Below the pieces are notes generated by a model. That model searched no databases. It saw nothing but the letters and a program-made list of their open reading frames with translations, and was not told where the DNA came from. From assembly GCA_001788835.1 (NCBI GenBank), contig MFXK01000016.1, positions 1 to 50,226 on the forward strand: a stretch of DNA of 50,226 nt. Reading direction: 5' to 3'. The DNA comes from Candidatus Peregrinibacteria bacterium RIFOXYB2_FULL_33_20. Its GTDB lineage: Bacteria > Patescibacteriota > Gracilibacteria > UBA1369 > GWF2-33-10. Positions within the stretch are counted from its first letter, which is position 1, and each line of letters starts with the position of its first letter. Both the position numbers and the translations under genes were made by a program. This document shows positions 1 to 6,873 of this stretch, piece after piece.

Positions 1-811
1 CCTCACATAAATAATCAATAAGATTAGCGGTTATAATTGGTAAAATTTTATCAACTTTACGCCGAATTAGAATTTGTCGTGGCCTGCGTGCCCCTTCTAT
101 TACTGAAGCTATCTCTCTAACATCACTATCACCACATATAATATATAGTAAACTATTAGAAACAGGAGTATATAGTAGTCTGGTAGAAACAGGAGTATTT
201 AATTCTCTAGGCTTATCGCCCAATTTAATATTTACTGTATTTGTTTCTTTGCAAATTATTACCGCTTCCCCTTCTTCACCTCTTCTGCCATTCAAGACAC
301 GAAATAAAAACTGATCCCTAGCCGGATCTTTTATATCTGGATCAATTATAATCGAGTCTAAAAAATCTGTAACAATATTAGGAACACGTTCAAATAAAAC
401 CGTCAAAATATTTTTCATGCTTTTGGCGGATTTTAATTCTTGTAAATCTAAAACAGATTTTATTTGGTCATCACCTGCCGCTAAAATGTCGTATAAAGAA
501 GCTGAGGGTGTGCTTTTTGTTGCCTCTTTTATCGCCGCTCTAGCGGTCTGATCATATCCATCAGTATGGTCAATATCCCACAATTTTCGCTCTAATTGAC
601 TATCAATTGCAGCCATATCTCTATCAAACCCTGCCTGCACTGTTGCTAAATTTGCAGTGTATTGATCATATTTTGTTTGCGCTTCTGTTTTTTGTCGTTC
701 ATATTGCCCCAATATTTCAGTCACCCGCTGATCCAAATCTCTTAAAACATCCAAAACGTCAAAAGAAATATGATCTTTGCCTTCTGCACTGCTGCCTGAT
801 GGAACATCCAT
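1..811 (-). CDS. Hypothetical protein, coiled-coil N-terminus (3' part cut off by window edge)
   Basis: An open frame runs from an ATG at 809-811 on the minus strand to the left edge without a stop, giving at least 270 residues, so the C-terminus lies outside the window. The first 90 or so residues (MDVPSGSSAEGKDH...) are polar and helix-prone, with charged heptads suggesting a coiled coil. The rest is mixed alpha/beta with no motif I recognise. There is no signal peptide or membrane segment, so it is probably cytoplasmic. A 9-residue in-frame tandem duplication (LYTPVSTRL then LYTPVSNSL in the protein) is encoded by the 27-bp repeat at 142-195. It stands alone and diverges from zwf. Function unknown. 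Confidence 0.7.
   Translation of the reverse strand, partial: MDVPSGSSAEGKDHISFDVLDVLRDLDQRVTEILGQYERQKTEAQTKYDQYTANLATVQAGFDRDMAAIDSQLERKLWDIDHTDGYDQTARAAIKEATKSTPSASLYDILAAGDDQIKSVLDLQELKSAKSMKNILTVLFERVPNIVTDFLDSIIIDPDIKDPARDQFLFRVLNGRRGEEGEAVIICKETNTVNIKLGDKPRELNTPVSTRLLYTPVSNSLLYIICGDSDVREIASVIEGARRPRQILIRRKVDKILPIITANLIDYLCE
142..195. repeat. 27-bp in-frame tandem duplication
   Basis: Positions 142-168 and 169-195 are two copies of a 27-bp unit beginning tatatagta and ending aaacaggag, differing at a few bases. Because 27 is nine codons, the unknown gene stays in frame. Confidence 0.8.
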
Positions 812-924
812 AAAGATATTTATTATTAAATGTTTTGTAATTATATCATAAAAAAATTTAATTTAAAACCTTTACTTTCGTTTTCTGTCCTAATATAATC
901 TCAAAAAGCTTTATAAATTCCCTA

Positions 925-2352
925 ATGAATCACAGAACAATCAACAATCCATTCGTGTTTATCATATTTGGAGCTTCCGGAGATTTGGCTAGAATCAAAT
1001 TATTTCCTTCCCTTTATGACCTTTATGAAAAAAATAAATTTAATACTGACTTCATCATTTATGGTTTCGCCAGATCCAAAAAAAGCCAAGAAGAATTCAG
1101 AAAATATTTTGAAGAAAGCGTTTGCGCTAAAAGAAAAAATGTAAATTCAAAGAGACTTAAAGAATTATCTAGACAAATTTTCTACTTCACCGGACATTAT
1201 GATAATTACGATGATTACAAAAAACTTTTTGAAAAAATCAACTCTCACAAACTGCCAAAACACAGCAAAAAAGTCGCTTATTTTTCTGTACCGCCGCAGG
1301 TTTTTAACCCTTTAATCCTCAATCTTGGCAAACTAAAAAAAGAAAACCAGGAAAACATTCAGCTGATCATTGAAAAACCATTCGGCGAGGATGGAAATTC
1401 CGCTCATGATTTATTCCTGCATGTTTCAGAATATTTTGATGAAGACAAAGAAGTGTATCTGCTCGATCATTACCTGGGTAAAACAGGCGTACAAAGCATT
1501 TTACCGTTACGATATGACAACAGCATTCTTAACCTCATGCTCAAAGGTAATGTTATCAAAAACATTCAAATTACGGTCAAAGAAAATTTTGGCATTTATC
1601 AGCGCGCCGGATATTTTGATCAGGTAGGGATCGTCAAAGATATGATCCAATCACACATGCTTCAAATCATGGCCCTGATTTCCATGTATATTCCGGTAGT
1701 TTATACCCCAAGAAACATTCAAAGAGAAAAATATAATATTTTATCTGCTTTAAGATTTCCGCCTGATATCAACAATGTCATCTTAGGGCAGTATGCCAGC
1801 TATCGAACTGAAAAAGACGTGCCGCCAAGCTCTTTAACTGCTACTTTTGTGGCTTTAAGGTTATTCATCGATCAAGTTGATTGGTATGCAGTGCCAATTT
1901 ATCTTCGTGCTGGCAAAAAATTGGATGCCAAATCTTCATATATTACGATTGAATTCAAAAAATTACCTTTTCAAAAAGATCCAAATGCTCCCACTAACAA
2001 GTTAATTTTGGAATTATATCCAAATGAAAAAATTCATATCAGACTCATCAAAAAACAAAGCTCAGAATCTACTGTAATTTATGAAGATATAGTAACCAGC
2101 GAAACTTTAACCTGCAAAGGAGATGCTTATTCAGATGAATACGGTCGATTAATTTTGGAAATGCTTAATGAAGATAAAACCAATTTCCTAAGTTTCAACG
2201 AAATTATCGAATGCTGGAGGCTCGCTGATTATTTAGATAAATTTATTGAAAAACACCAAGTCCCAATCGTTATTTATCATGATAATTCGCAAGGCCCTGA
2301 ACAACAGCATAATTTAACCAAAATTGATAATAATCAATGGTATGAAATTTAA
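925..2352 (+). CDS. zwf: Glucose-6-phosphate 1-dehydrogenase
   Basis: Oxidises glucose-6-phosphate to 6-phosphogluconolactone with NAD(P)+, the entry step of the oxidative pentose phosphate pathway, in the cytoplasm. The N-terminal dinucleotide-binding motif GASGDLA is at residues 16-22, EKPFGED at about 150, and the family signature DHYLGK at 181-186 with its catalytic-region histidine; the usual following Glu is Thr here. At 475 residues it is close to the family norm of about 490. The ATG at 925 is preceded by no clear Shine-Dalgarno sequence but leaves the normal short N-terminal tail. No gnd or pgl lies nearby. The aroA frame follows at once, so the two may be cotranscribed. Confidence 0.93.
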   Translation: MNHRTINNPFVFIIFGASGDLARIKLFPSLYDLYEKNKFNTDFIIYGFARSKKSQEEFRKYFEESVCAKRKNVNSKRLKELSRQIFYFTGHYDNYDDYKKLFEKINSHKLPKHSKKVAYFSVPPQVFNPLILNLGKLKKENQENIQLIIEKPFGEDGNSAHDLFLHVSEYFDEDKEVYLLDHYLGKTGVQSILPLRYDNSILNLMLKGNVIKNIQITVKENFGIYQRAGYFDQVGIVKDMIQSHMLQIMALISMYIPVVYTPRNIQREKYNILSALRFPPDINNVILGQYASYRTEKDVPPSSLTATFVALRLFIDQVDWYAVPIYLRAGKKLDAKSSYITIEFKKLPFQKDPNAPTNKLILELYPNEKIHIRLIKKQSSESTVIYEDIVTSETLTCKGDAYSDEYGRLILEMLNEDKTNFLSFNEIIECWRLADYLDKFIEKHQVPIVIYHDNSQGPEQQHNLTKIDNNQWYEI

Positions 2353-2370
2353 TTGGTTTGCCTTTACTCT

Positions 2371-2395
2371 GTCATTCCCGTGAGAACAGGAATCT
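2371..2395. repeat. Solo terminal repeat of the gtcattcc family
   Basis: A 25-bp partial palindrome starting gtcattcccg and ending caggaatct, in the zwf-aroA gap. The same unit forms the ends of the elements at 15664-16014, 45956-46139 and 18587-18653. It lies in the open frame upstream of aroA, which is why the aroA start is placed after it. Confidence 0.6.
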
Positions 2396-2412
2396 TAAAA
2401 AAACTAAAAGAC

Positions 2413-4158
2413 ATGTCTTCAATATTAAAGGAGATTAAAATTCAACAAATTCGTAAACCCATTAAAGCTTCGATCCAAATCCCTGGTTCGAAATCCTACA
2501 CCAATCGAGCTTTTTTAATTGCATCTTTAGCGGAAGGCAAAAGTATTATAAAAAATGCTCTTCTTTCTGACGATACAATTTACTGCTACAAAGCTTTAAA
2601 ACAATTAGGGATAAATATAAAAAAACGAGGAACAACATTCAAGATTGAAGGAACAACTCACCTCTCCCCTAACCCCTCTCCTCTCTTAAAAGAGAGGAAA
2701 GGGGAATCTCTAAAATTATATCTAGGAAATGCTGGTACTGCAGTTCGTTTCTTATCTTCAACTTTAACTTTATTTCATCAAGACACCATCATCACCGGCA
2801 ATCAAAGAATGCAAAATCGCCCAATTGATGATCTTGTTGAAAGTCTCAAAATTCTTGGAGTTGAAATTGAGTATTTAAAAAAACAAGGCTTCCCGCCAAT
2901 CCTAATTCATGGAAAAGGCTTAAATGGAGGAAAAACCAAAATCAAAGGAAATAAATCCAGCCAATTTCTTTCTGGTCTACTAATCACTTCTCCTTTTGCC
3001 AAAAAAACAATTGAAATAGAAATTGAAGGCGAGCTTGTTTCCAAACCTTATGTGGATATGACCATTGAAATCATGAAAGAATTTGGAGTTAAAGTTGAAA
3101 ATCAAAACTACAAAAAATTCATAATTACATCTGAACAAAAATATTATTCAAAAAATTACGAAGTCGAAGCAGACGCAAGTTCTGCCAGTTATTTTTTTGG
3201 AATTGCCGCCGCAAATAATTCAGAAATTACAGTAACAAATTTAAACAAAAATTCTCTTCAAGCAGATATCCATTTTCTTGATGTACTGGAAAAAATGGGA
3301 TGCGAAATAAAAGCCCCCTTGATAAAGGGGGTTGGGGGATTAAATTTTAAAGGATCATATATCTCATATAACTCTAAATTAAAAGAATTCGCTAAACAAA
3401 ATCGTAATAATCCAACAAGACCAGAATCTAAAATTTGGTATGAAATACTATGTGAAGATAAATTAAATGGTTATAGATTCCTTAGACAAAAACCTATCAA
3501 TAATTTTATATTAGATTTTTATTGTTCTAAATTATTATTAGGCATTGAAATTGATGGAGAAAGTCACTCTGAACAGATAGAATATGATCATATAAGGACT
3601 GAATTATTAAATAATTATAATATTAAAATTATAAGATATTCTAATAATGAAGTAATGGAAAATATTGAAGGTGTATATGAAGATTTAAATGAACAAATAA
3701 AAAACAGAAAAAAAGAACTCAAATCCCCTAAATCCCCTTTATCAAGGGGACTTACTTTAATTGGTCCAAAACAACACCTCTCCCCTCTCGGCACTATCAA
3801 CTTAAATCACATGCCAGATTCCGCAATGACAGTTGCAGTCCTTTGTACTCTTGCAAAAGGTAAAAGTACTTTGACTGGACTTGCAAATTTGAGACTAAAA
3901 GAATGCGATCGACTCAAAGCTCTCACAACTGAACTAACAAAAATCGGAGCCAAAATTAAAGAATTTAATGACGGACTGGAAATCATTGGAAATCCAGAAA
4001 AACTACATGGAGCTGAAATAGAAACTTATGATGATCACCGCATGGCAATGTGTTTCGCAGTTCTTGGTACAAAGATACCAGGAATAATTATAAAAAACCC
4101 TGATTGTGTTAAAAAAACGTATCCTGGGTTTTGGGAAGAGTTGAAAAAAATTAATTAA
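2413..4158 (+). CDS. aroA: EPSP synthase (3-phosphoshikimate 1-carboxyvinyltransferase) interrupted in frame by a DUF559 cassette
   Basis: Makes 5-enolpyruvylshikimate-3-phosphate from shikimate-3-phosphate and phosphoenolpyruvate. Visible landmarks are PGSKSYTNR (24-32), LGNAGTAVRF (about 106), SSQFLSGLL, DASSASYFF, MPDSAMT, KECDRLKA and DDHRMAMC. The ATG at 2413 is chosen because the open frame upstream of it is intergenic repeat. The protein is 581 residues against about 430 for the family. The excess is mainly residues about 301-446, inserted between the segments DVLEKMGCEIK and LTLIGPKQ. This insert reads as a DUF559 (PD-(D/E)XK-fold) nuclease domain with LDFYC and IEIDGESH motifs. A second short insertion sits at residues about 84-99. 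All EPSP synthase motifs are intact, so the enzyme may still work. No intein splicing motifs are visible. Confidence 0.9.
   Translation: MSSILKEIKIQQIRKPIKASIQIPGSKSYTNRAFLIASLAEGKSIIKNALLSDDTIYCYKALKQLGINIKKRGTTFKIEGTTHLSPNPSPLLKERKGESLKLYLGNAGTAVRFLSSTLTLFHQDTIITGNQRMQNRPIDDLVESLKILGVEIEYLKKQGFPPILIHGKGLNGGKTKIKGNKSSQFLSGLLITSPFAKKTIEIEIEGELVSKPYVDMTIEIMKEFGVKVENQNYKKFIITSEQKYYSKNYEVEADASSASYFFGIAAANNSEITVTNLNKNSLQADIHFLDVLEKMGCEIKAPLIKGVGGLNFKGSYISYNSKLKEFAKQNRNNPTRPESKIWYEILCEDKLNGYRFLRQKPINNFILDFYCSKLLLGIEIDGESHSEQIEYDHIRTELLNNYNIKIIRYSNNEVMENIEGVYEDLNEQIKNRKKELKSPKSPLSRGLTLIGPKQHLSPLGTINLNHMPDSAMTVAVLCTLAKGKSTLTGLANLRLKECDRLKALTTELTKIGAKIKEFNDGLEIIGNPEKLHGAEIETYDDHRMAMCFAVLGTKIPGIIIKNPDCVKKTYPGFWEELKKIN
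2661..2710. repeat. In-frame palindromic repeat inside aroA
   Basis: Positions 2673-2704 fold into a 15-bp stem with one mismatch and a 2-nt loop (cccctctcctctctt pairing with aagagaggaaagggg). It is translated as HLSPNPSPLLKERKGE, a peptide type typical of translated palindromic repeats, between the aroA segments KIEGTT and LKLYLGNAG. It adds about ten residues to a surface loop compared with E. coli AroA. Confidence 0.75.
3314..3750 (+). mobile_element. DUF559 nuclease cassette with terminal inverted repeats, embedded in aroA
   Basis: The cassette is bounded by ccccttgataaagggg at 3315-3330 and its exact reverse complement at 3734-3749; homology extends inward (ggttggggga against aaatccccta) to about 30 bp with mismatches. 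Between them the aroA frame encodes a DUF559-type domain: YNSKLKEFAKQNRNNPT, FLRQKPINNFILDFYC, LGIEIDGESH and IIRYSNNEV. In free-standing DUF559 proteins the domain begins with its own Met; no ATG is present at that point here, so it is translated only as part of AroA. Both terminal repeats are also read through in frame. Confidence 0.85.
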
Positions 4159-4242: not shown

Positions 4243-6873
4243 TTACATTTTTAATTTCCTCACCACCACCTCATCTGCCACAAAATCAATTTTCACTTTG
4301 TCCCCCTCTTTGATTTTACCTTCAACTATCTGCAAGGCAAGTTCATCAAGAATTTTATTTTGAATTAATCGTTTCAAAGGTCGAGCCCCAAACAATTCAT
4401 CAAATCCAGCAGATGCTAAATATTTCAAAGCAAAATCTGAAATTTGAATCTGAATACTTTTTTTATTCAATCTTTTCGCCACTTTATCCATCTGTAATTT
4501 CACAATTTGAGCAATTTCATCCTCATTCAAATGCTGAAACACAATAATATCATCTATCCTATTCAAAAATTCAGGTCTGAAAAATTTATGTAAAACCTGC
4601 ATTACTTCGTTTTTTTGCTTCTCTTGCCTGTCCTTCAAAGCTTTTTTATCCAACGAAGCTTTAGCGAAGTTGGAAGCGAAAGACGAATCTTTCATGTTTT
4701 TTGCAATTTCACTACTGCCCAAATTGGAAGTCATGATAATGATCGTATTTTTGAAATCAACAGTTCGCCCTTTACTATCAGTAAGCCTACCATCATCCAA
4801 AACTTGTAAAAAAGTATTAAAAACCTCAGGATGAGCTTTCTCAATTTCATCAAACAAAACAACACTGTAAGGCCTTCTACGAACTGCCTCAGTTAATTGC
4901 CCGCCTTCTTCATAACCAACATAACCTGGAGGAGAACCAATCAGTCTTGCAATACTGTGTTTCTCACCATATTCACTCATATCAATCCTAATCATGGCAT
5001 TATCATCATTAAACATAAATTCCGCCAATGCTTTTGCCAATTCTGTCTTACCAACACCAGTCGGCCCAAGGAAAATAAATGATCCGATTGGCTTGTTTTC
5101 TTCCTGAATCCCAGCCCTGCTTCTTCGAATAGCATTTGATACGGCCTTGATTGCCTCCTTTTGTCCTATGACTCTTTTGGCTATTTCTTGTTCCATATTT
5201 GCAAGTTTTGTAATTTCAGAACTCATCATCTTGGTCACAGGAACGCCAGTCCATTTAGCAACAATTTTTGCAATATCATCCTCATTAACCTCTTCTCGTA
5301 AAATTTTCTGATCTTTCTGAATGTCATCAAGTTTAGATTTCAAATCTTTAATTTTTTTCTCATTTTCCGGAATTTTGCCATAATTTATTTCGGCAACTTT
5401 TTGCAAATCACCCATCCTCTCGACCTTAATGGATTCTTCTTTCAAAGTATCAATCTCCTTGCTTAAATTTTTGATTTGATCAATAAAAGTTTTTTCATTT
5501 TTCCAGTGCATTTCAATTTTGCTGTTTTCTTCTTTTAAATCAGCAAGTTCTTTCTCAAGTTCTTTCAAACGTTTCATAGACTGCTCATCTTTTTCCTTTT
5601 TCAAAGCTTCTCTTTCAATCTCCAATTGCCTTATTCTTCTATGCAATTTATCAATTTCAGTTGGCTTGCTTTCGTTTTCTATTCTTATAACCGAACAGGC
5701 CTCATCCATCAAATCAATTGCCTTATCTGGTAAAAACCTATCTGTAATATAACGATCAGAAAGAGTCACCGCCGCAATCACAGCATTATCTCGAATTTTC
5801 ACGCCATGATGAACTTCGTACTTTTCCTTAATGCCTCGCAAAATTGAAACTGCATCTTCAATTGATGGTTCCTCAACATTCACAGGCTGAAATCTCCTCT
5901 CCAAAGCCGCATCTTTTTCAATATATTTGCGATATTCTTTCAAAGTTGTTGCCCCAATCGTTCGAATCTTACCTCTAGCCAAAGCAGGCTTTAACAAATT
6001 TCCAGCATCCATTGCCCCTTCAGAAGCTCCAGCACCAACAATGGTGTGAAGCTCATCTATAAACAAAATGATATCGCCTTTGGAAGCTTCAATCTCTTTC
6101 AAAACCGCTTTCAACCTATCTTCAAATTCTCCGCGATATTTGGTCCCAGCTATCATTGCCCCTAAATCTAGACTTAAAAGTTTTTTATTTGCAATCACAT
6201 CAGGCACATCATTATCAATAATTTTCTTTGCCAAACCTTCAACTATTGCTGTTTTTCCAGTGCCAGGCTCACCCACCAGGACTGGATTATTCTTAGTCCT
6301 TCTGGATAAAATTTGGATTACTCGTCTAATTTCATCATCTCGGCCAATAACAGGGTCAATCTTTCCCTGCCTCGCCAACGCCGTAAAATCCTGAGTATAT
6401 TTCTCCAAAGCCTGATATTTGCCTTCCGGCTCCTGATCAGTCACTCGCTGATTGCCTCGAACAGTAGCTAAAACTTTTAAAACTTCATCCTTGGAAATAT
6501 TTAAAATTTTCTTAACCTCACTTTGATCAAGCAAAGCTAAAAATAAATGCTCGGTAGAAATGTACTCATCGCGTAATTTACCAGCCGCACTTTCCGCCTC
6601 ATCAAACACTTTTTTCATTTCCGCGCTGATATATGGCCCGGAAGCGCCAGAAACTTGCGGATAGGTTTTAATAATGTCTTGCGTTTGGCGTGAAATTTCT
6701 TCCGGTTTAAGTTCTAATTTCTGCAATAAAGTCGGAATGATACTGTCTTTTTGCTCTAACAAAACTAATAATAAATGCAGGGGCATTAAGGTTTGGTGAG
6801 ACATTTTGGAAGCAAATGAAATCATGCCCTGCACTGCTTCCGCCGCTTTGGTGGTAAAATTATTGAAATCCAT
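4243..6873 (-). CDS. clpB: ATP-dependent disaggregase ClpB
   Basis: A hexameric AAA+ chaperone that rescues aggregated proteins with DnaK. The 876 residues match full-length ClpB. They contain two N-domain repeats (1-145), Walker A GEPGTGKT at 201-208 with Walker [10 protein letters not shown], and the charged coiled-coil middle domain at about 405-540. The second nucleotide-binding domain has GPTGVGKT near 605 and [12 protein letters not shown], and a C-terminal domain ends the protein. A perfect CIRCE operator lies 50 bp upstream of the start, so HrcA repression is expected. There is no dnaK or grpE in the window. The gene converges on aroA. Confidence 0.97.

Follow-up and report, generated by a model that had tools for sequence, protein, structure and literature searches.

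The window analyzed here, a stretch of 50,226 nucleotides, carries an aroA gene for EPSP synthase that houses, in frame, a DUF559 domain placed between two inverted repeats (hereafter arms). The features of this gene are as follows:

2413..4158, plus strand: aroA (EPSP synthase) frame including the insert, 581 amino acids from the ATG at 2413, open from 2353.
2659..2705, minus strand: solo triplex-type repeat in frame in aroA, CCCCTTTCCTCTCTT / AAGAGAGGAGAGGGG / TTA / GGGGAGAGG, read as HLSPNPSPLLKERKGE.
3313..3751, plus strand: in-frame insert of ~146 codons in the turn that joins MGCEIK to LTLIGPKQ, where intact relatives have few residues.
3314..3341, plus strand: left arm, with hairpin CCCCCTTGATAAAGGGGG (3314-3331), connector TT and mirror tail GGGGGATT, read as APLIKGVGG.
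3376..3699, plus strand: DUF559 domain (predicted Vsr/EDxHD-like nuclease), every conserved catalytic-type residue present.
3721..3753, minus strand: right arm, the inverted copy, with tail AATCCCC, connector and hairpin CCCCTTTATCAAGGGG (3734-3749), read as SPKSPLSRG.

Translation of the window yields an open reading frame from 2353 to 4158 without any internal stop, also across the insert. Along this 601-amino acid frame, Pfam recognizes EPSP_synthase (E 2e-119) split in two stretches around DUF559, the NCBI aroA model TIGR01356 likewise matches in two stretches (438 bits vs. a cut-off of 287), and residues 342-449 correspond to DUF559 (PF04480; E 6.6e-27, 94 bits vs. a cut-off of 20.6). This confirms what a preliminary description had read from the letters alone, namely a stop-free aroA frame of 581 residues with EPSP synthase on both sides of an intact DUF559 domain that is not an intein: no intein family appears among the Pfam matches of the 601-amino acid frame, and the translated insert, which starts with APLIKG and finishes with SPLSRG, is devoid of terminal Cys/Ser...HN intein residues. 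The catalytic EPSP synthase motifs are intact and, since no second EPSP synthase was found in this genome, the interrupted aroA is probably the working copy. The window is one contig of a 1.5-Mb draft in 42 contigs, which might suggest an assembly or binning artefact or a dead aroA. As the frame and its catalytic motifs are undamaged, the genome yielded no other EPSP synthase, and the same architecture is present in frame in dozens of other, independent genomes, a misassembly at 3314-3750 is unlikely and this explanation as a whole hardly credible.

The alignment of AroA with related genomes shows a clean, short and uninterrupted site: relatives have, for example, MGCRISKTTKSISVQGPKQLTPLRTINLN at the position of MGCEIK-[insert]-LTLIGPKQHLSPLGTINLN in the window. 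Far from being an extra domain, without repeats, common to all relatives, the insert is shared by the aroA of none of those examined. On E. coli EPSP synthase, its position corresponds to the stretch bounded by residues 287 and 306, and the alignment to this enzyme and to the intact relatives places it in what is probably a surface loop of AroA, which we take to be a hairpin turn from the sequence pattern and the general fold of EPSP synthase. In the closest relative (G001), aroA lacks DUF559 and this turn instead holds another short palindrome, TLPSFAKATAGKQCVS, as an insertion, implying that this turn tolerates insertions. The clpB gene of the window also contains an in-frame palindrome, AACGAAGCTTTAGCGAAGTT (4652-4673, read on the minus strand), which resembles the SFAKATAGK element in aroA of G001; both represent a second, different family of intragenic palindromes.

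The exact 16-bp inverted repeats reported to bracket DUF559 were verified by reverse-complement comparison, CCCCTTGATAAAGGGG (3315-3330) being the exact reverse complement of CCCCTTTATCAAGGGG (3734-3749), and the inverted match extends to 28 nt at 86%. Each arm is more than half an inverted repeat, as it combines a hairpin and a G-rich tail in a triplex-type arrangement. With up to three mismatches, the 16-mer has five matches in the window vs. 0.28 expected, and it occurs 14 times in its own genome vs. none for a control pattern. Repeat-bracketed DUF559 genes are present in many genomes; the window 16-mer itself was found in none of the remaining 88 genomes of the order. Elsewhere in the window's genome, the palindrome exists as 12 solo copies, all of them in frame in open reading frames, with leucyl and arginyl tRNA synthetases (identified by inspection) and a cysteine-rich paralog family as hosts. 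In that paralog family, L012, L014, L016 and L018 share the position of an in-frame pair of triplex-type repeats, and L009, without the pair, provides an internal empty site.

From their sequence, the arms can be assigned to the intrastrand-triplex motif family named BoxC/PIT/TM in E. coli. These repeats occur in E. coli and >260 prokaryotes, and the E. coli TM repeats form a triplex in solution (PMC4666352). Their layout, a Y stem, an R stem, 3 nt (TTA or CCG) and a mirrored R strand, is that of the DUF559 arms, where a hairpin (pyrimidine 5' strand, purine 3' strand) is followed by a connector and a tail mirroring the purine strand; the connector is exactly 3 nt long in 212 of 269 arms, mostly TTA, TTG, CTA, TCG, CCG or CTG. 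The elements that define the family (Y stem, R stem, short connector and mirrored R third strand) are present in most DUF559 loci and in the window arms, the latter being AT-richer, weaker triplex examples with 6 matches each vs. a survey threshold of 7. The inverted A+B pairs of E. coli resemble arm-only mini-elements. By contrast, BoxC/PIT/TM repeats have been described as intergenic, nuclease-free and without association to mobile elements (PMC4666352), whereas DUF559 arms bracket genes and sit in frame in proteins. The tail lies outside in 52 vs. 6 arms of in-frame copies and the hairpin outside in 69 vs. 33 arms of free copies, the window copy having the hairpin outside. A likeness to Rickettsia palindromic elements had been proposed for the cassette. 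These are short and not known to carry an enzyme gene; the parallel stands in that both are palindromic DNA lying in frame in protein genes and translated, but the BoxC/PIT/TM family is the better match for the arms.

The association between these repeats and DUF559 is far beyond chance in the genomes compared. Strong inverted repeats occur on both sides of 42% of the Patescibacteria copies of DUF559 (n=103) and of 68% of those in other phyla (n=80), compared with 0.4% (n=515) and 0.5% (n=400) of the respective controls, all of which are random positions within the same loci. A triplex motif lies ≤200 nt from DUF559 in 68% (Patescibacteria) and 82% (other phyla) of cases, the figures for control windows being 0.7% and 1.7%. 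Roughly one third to one half of the DUF559 copies lack a detectable long inverted repeat, which counts against a mobile element and, if it is one, would imply that arms decay. At the genome level, DUF559 is present in 61 of the 67 genomes of the class that contain the motif CCCTCTCCCN2-6GGGAGAGGG vs. 107 of the 274 without it (p 1.7e-15, ignoring phylogeny); the other 6 of the 67, with the motif and no DUF559 detected, count against a nuclease-driven system.

Comparison of loci shows that arms and nuclease gene disperse as one unit that ends at the arms. Two loci of the same genome (G143) share 533 nt at 83% identity that start and end at the arms, with no homology outside, and 418 nt, again from arm to arm, are common at 80% to one locus of a deltaproteobacterium and one of a dadabacterium. 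Transposition was not observed, nor did any recent, identical copy with a fresh empty site come to light, most copies being old; a plasmid search for recent identical copies with two elements as query gave no match. No clear target-site duplication was seen at ribE (G309 vs. G310) or in the zinc-ribbon paralogs, where relatives are too diverged. A phage origin was considered and discarded as evidence of mobility: DUF559 is present in 24 viral contigs, several of which also have large inverted repeats, and since groups of these contigs share flanks with each other they give no independent evidence. Among them, L316-L324 (IMG/VR) are related viral or prophage contigs of 6-9 kb with DUF559 and inverted repeats scoring up to 49 near the contig end.

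These observations make it probable that we are dealing with bacteria-wide mobile elements of ~0.4-0.6 kb, composed of one DUF559 gene between inverted triplex repeats, driven by the nuclease and accompanied by non-autonomous derivatives reduced to the arms. The triplex repeats might instead owe their mobility to another factor and DUF559 be a passenger caught between two copies, in line with the standalone repeats, of which the 12 in the window's genome all lie in frame, and with repeats in genomes without detected DUF559. We regard this as quite unlikely, because one same gene family lies between the repeats across phyla, repeats and DUF559 strongly co-occur, and the nuclease stays conserved even inside other enzymes. 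REPIN-RAYT systems offer a model for such a factor, since they also have short paired inverted hairpin repeats flanking an enzyme gene as well as non-autonomous copies. Unlike DUF559, RAYT is a Y1/HUH transposase of unrelated fold, and a RAYT mobilizer was rejected here as Y1_Tnp (PF01797) has no match in the window's genome. The initial view of the nuclease as mere cargo is replaced by that of a probable driver, given its strong purifying selection, its fold similar to that of homing endonucleases and its co-occurrence with the repeats; from these, we infer that the nuclease drives the mobility of the element.

The window domain is, as judged from its profile match and structural model, a DUF559 (PF04480) predicted nuclease of the Vsr-like PD-(D/E)XK/EDxHD type. 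Its AlphaFold model (pLDDT 89) is nearest to NGO0050 (Z 16.2), then to the catalytic domain of the homing endonuclease I-Bth0305I (Z 14.0, rmsd 2.4 over 94 residues) and to Vsr (Z 10.2). DUF559 has in common with Vsr and EDxHD homing endonucleases, of which I-Bth0305I is a representative (PMC3943268), the fold of the catalytic domain and the conserved E-D-H-D residues. However, I-Bth0305I is a member of a group I homing endonuclease family and contains additional DNA-binding regions (PMC3943268), while the DUF559 element has the domain on its own, flanked by DNA repeats and present in a variety of genes, without splicing. Inteins with a homing endonuclease also place a nuclease domain within an essential enzyme, but no splicing (Hint) domain was matched in the window protein and the insert appears to stay in the product. 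As for function, YcjD was assigned to the PD-(D/E)XK superfamily in 2005 (PMC1189080), and the sole functional DUF559 paper found (PMC12907096) concerns the Caulobacter VsrA: a methylase mutant needs this protein for its SOS response, and the paper treats it as a repair-type nuclease, which counts against the mobile-element reading.

In-frame residence is widespread. Profile searches detected DUF559 in 170 of 353 genomes of the class and 101 of 380 of the phylum, with a maximum of 12 copies per genome. For a scan of the collection, the narrower DUF559 alignment A2 was used, alignment A1 being too diverse. We identified 44 in-frame insertions in Patescibacteria and 8 confirmed ones in other groups, a sample enriched by the choice of long frames that gives no estimate of their share among copies. 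Frames and Pfam show ValS, LeuS (two sites), Sua5, MnmA, MiaB, TsaB/TsaD-type, Fmt and Elp3-like proteins as Patescibacteria hosts; others are AroA, UvrC (two different sites), RibE, RibD, RsmG/GidB, MurD, an F420-ligase-like protein and glycosyltransferases, among others. RarA (L088) and a methyltransferase-like host (L178) were assigned by inspection, Pfam giving no confirmation of the host. Beyond Patescibacteria, the scan of named genomes revealed HrpA, PriA, HsdS, HsdM, Mfd and a class I tRNA synthetase, the last two from one Rickettsiales genome. Every ribE insert measured is a multiple of three nucleotides long, and the empty ribE site is seen within the same genus (G309 vs. G310). The proposal of a mobile cassette tolerated by being translated through gains support from the clean site in relatives and the same cassette in many genes.

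This intragenic life can be traced in a tree of 137 domains, in which the in-frame or free state changes 13 times vs. at least 30 in 200 permutations. In one family (f19), the 29 in-frame copies, together with one N-terminal fusion, are set apart from the rest by a branch with support 97/97. Within this family, a single ribE clade is rejected (p-AU 2e-7) and the ribE and rsmG copies of one genome are sisters, forming the closest pair of that genome, which implies that the lineage changed host genes while staying intragenic. An upstream ATG is present in 11 of 44 in-frame vs. 78 of 93 free copies (p 2.6e-11), and the family seems to have specialized on in-frame residence with its own start codons largely lost. 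The embedded nuclease bears the marks of strong purifying selection in these alignments: its signature residues (D, E, D, H and Q) do not vary among the 44 in-frame copies, and dN/dS is 0.05 for a ribE pair and 0.16 for the ribE/rsmG pair.

These data also bear on homing without an intron, by which DUF559 would cut the uninterrupted allele at one gene site and be copied in by recombination, the arms serving as linkers only. The fold, close to I-Bth0305I after NGO0050, would suit it, as would the recurrent insertions seen in several genera, which interrupt ribE at about one linker and rsmG in one region. Yet the element occurs in many genes, hosts were swapped within the clade as seen in the split ribE copies and the ribE-rsmG pair, and intergenic copies carry the same arms; recurrence may moreover reflect survivorship at a few tolerant turns, such as that of aroA with its different palindrome in G001. 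We hold homing to be rather unlikely. Recruitment of the domain for a host function such as DNA repair, with host selection keeping it, would explain the strong purifying selection and the many hosts that act on nucleic acids (UvrC, Mfd, PriA, tRNA-modifying enzymes), but it is very improbable considering that other hosts are riboflavin, shikimate, peptidoglycan and glycosyl enzymes, that the insert is missing from sister species and that the arms are DNA repeats present elsewhere in the genome.

In E. coli, the ycjD gene of K-12 is a DUF559 gene with TM number 9 of the published table (1351204-1351239) directly downstream. The ycjD stretch is present in 3,364 of 5,426 E. coli genomes. Among sampled genomes, those with ycjD have 12-27 repeat places (median 19, n=37) and those without it 1-18 (median 4, n=23), a difference with p 7e-10 by a statistic that ignores phylogeny; the 1-18 copies kept by lineages without ycjD count against the nuclease as driver. 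A clean strain-level empty site was sought and rejected: strains without ycjD (L338, L339) have a TetR regulator and RND efflux genes beside fabI instead, and therefore no clean excision.

In the mechanism that we propose for the nuclease-driven element, DUF559 would recognize the structured terminal repeat or a related target and break DNA, the element would be copied into the break, and short arm-only copies might be mobilized by the same nuclease. Where an essential enzyme receives the copy in frame at one of its surface turns, the arms would become flexible proline/glycine-rich linkers, such that the host enzyme would still work and the nuclease be translated as an internal domain. One idea is that arm-only pairs, which resemble the two outer ends of the aroA element fused together, might correspond to a circle junction. 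We lean, with some reserve, towards the broader proposal that an EDxHD/Vsr-type nuclease mobilizes BoxC repeats across bacteria, including E. coli (ycjD), with one lineage obligately intragenic as a translated internal domain, and that this is an undescribed class of elements. Each component has been described before; as a system, and in residing within host enzymes, they correspond to no known kind tested here. In the passages covered, the open-access papers naming DUF559 contain no link of it to repeats, nor did we find such a link in the searchable literature for BoxC with mobility or nucleases, for REPIN with Vsr, or for EDxHD.

If correct, this would provide a likely enzyme and origin for the BoxC/PIT/TM repeats, on record in E. 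coli since the 1990s without an explanation so far, as well as a likely role for DUF559, a widespread family of unknown function, both testable in E. coli K-12. It would also add a third way for a selfish nuclease to live within essential genes, neither RNA-spliced as an intron nor protein-spliced as an intein; it would instead persist as a lasting additional domain that many enzymes have repeatedly tolerated. In-frame copies would then be natural maps of the enzyme sites that accept whole-domain insertions.

Several individual loci deserve mention. In uvrC, DUF559 lies at two different sites in two genera (L081, L163), and at the site used in one of them the other has a different short palindromic insertion, SPLTKGAGG. 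One contig (L181, G263 contig 13) bears, near its end, two tandem DUF559 with identical protein sequence 565 nt apart, either a tandem duplication or an assembly artefact. Finally, a leucyl-tRNA synthetase (L175, G152, 31-3390) from a TGA-recoded genome combines an in-frame DUF559 with an inserted NUDIX domain.
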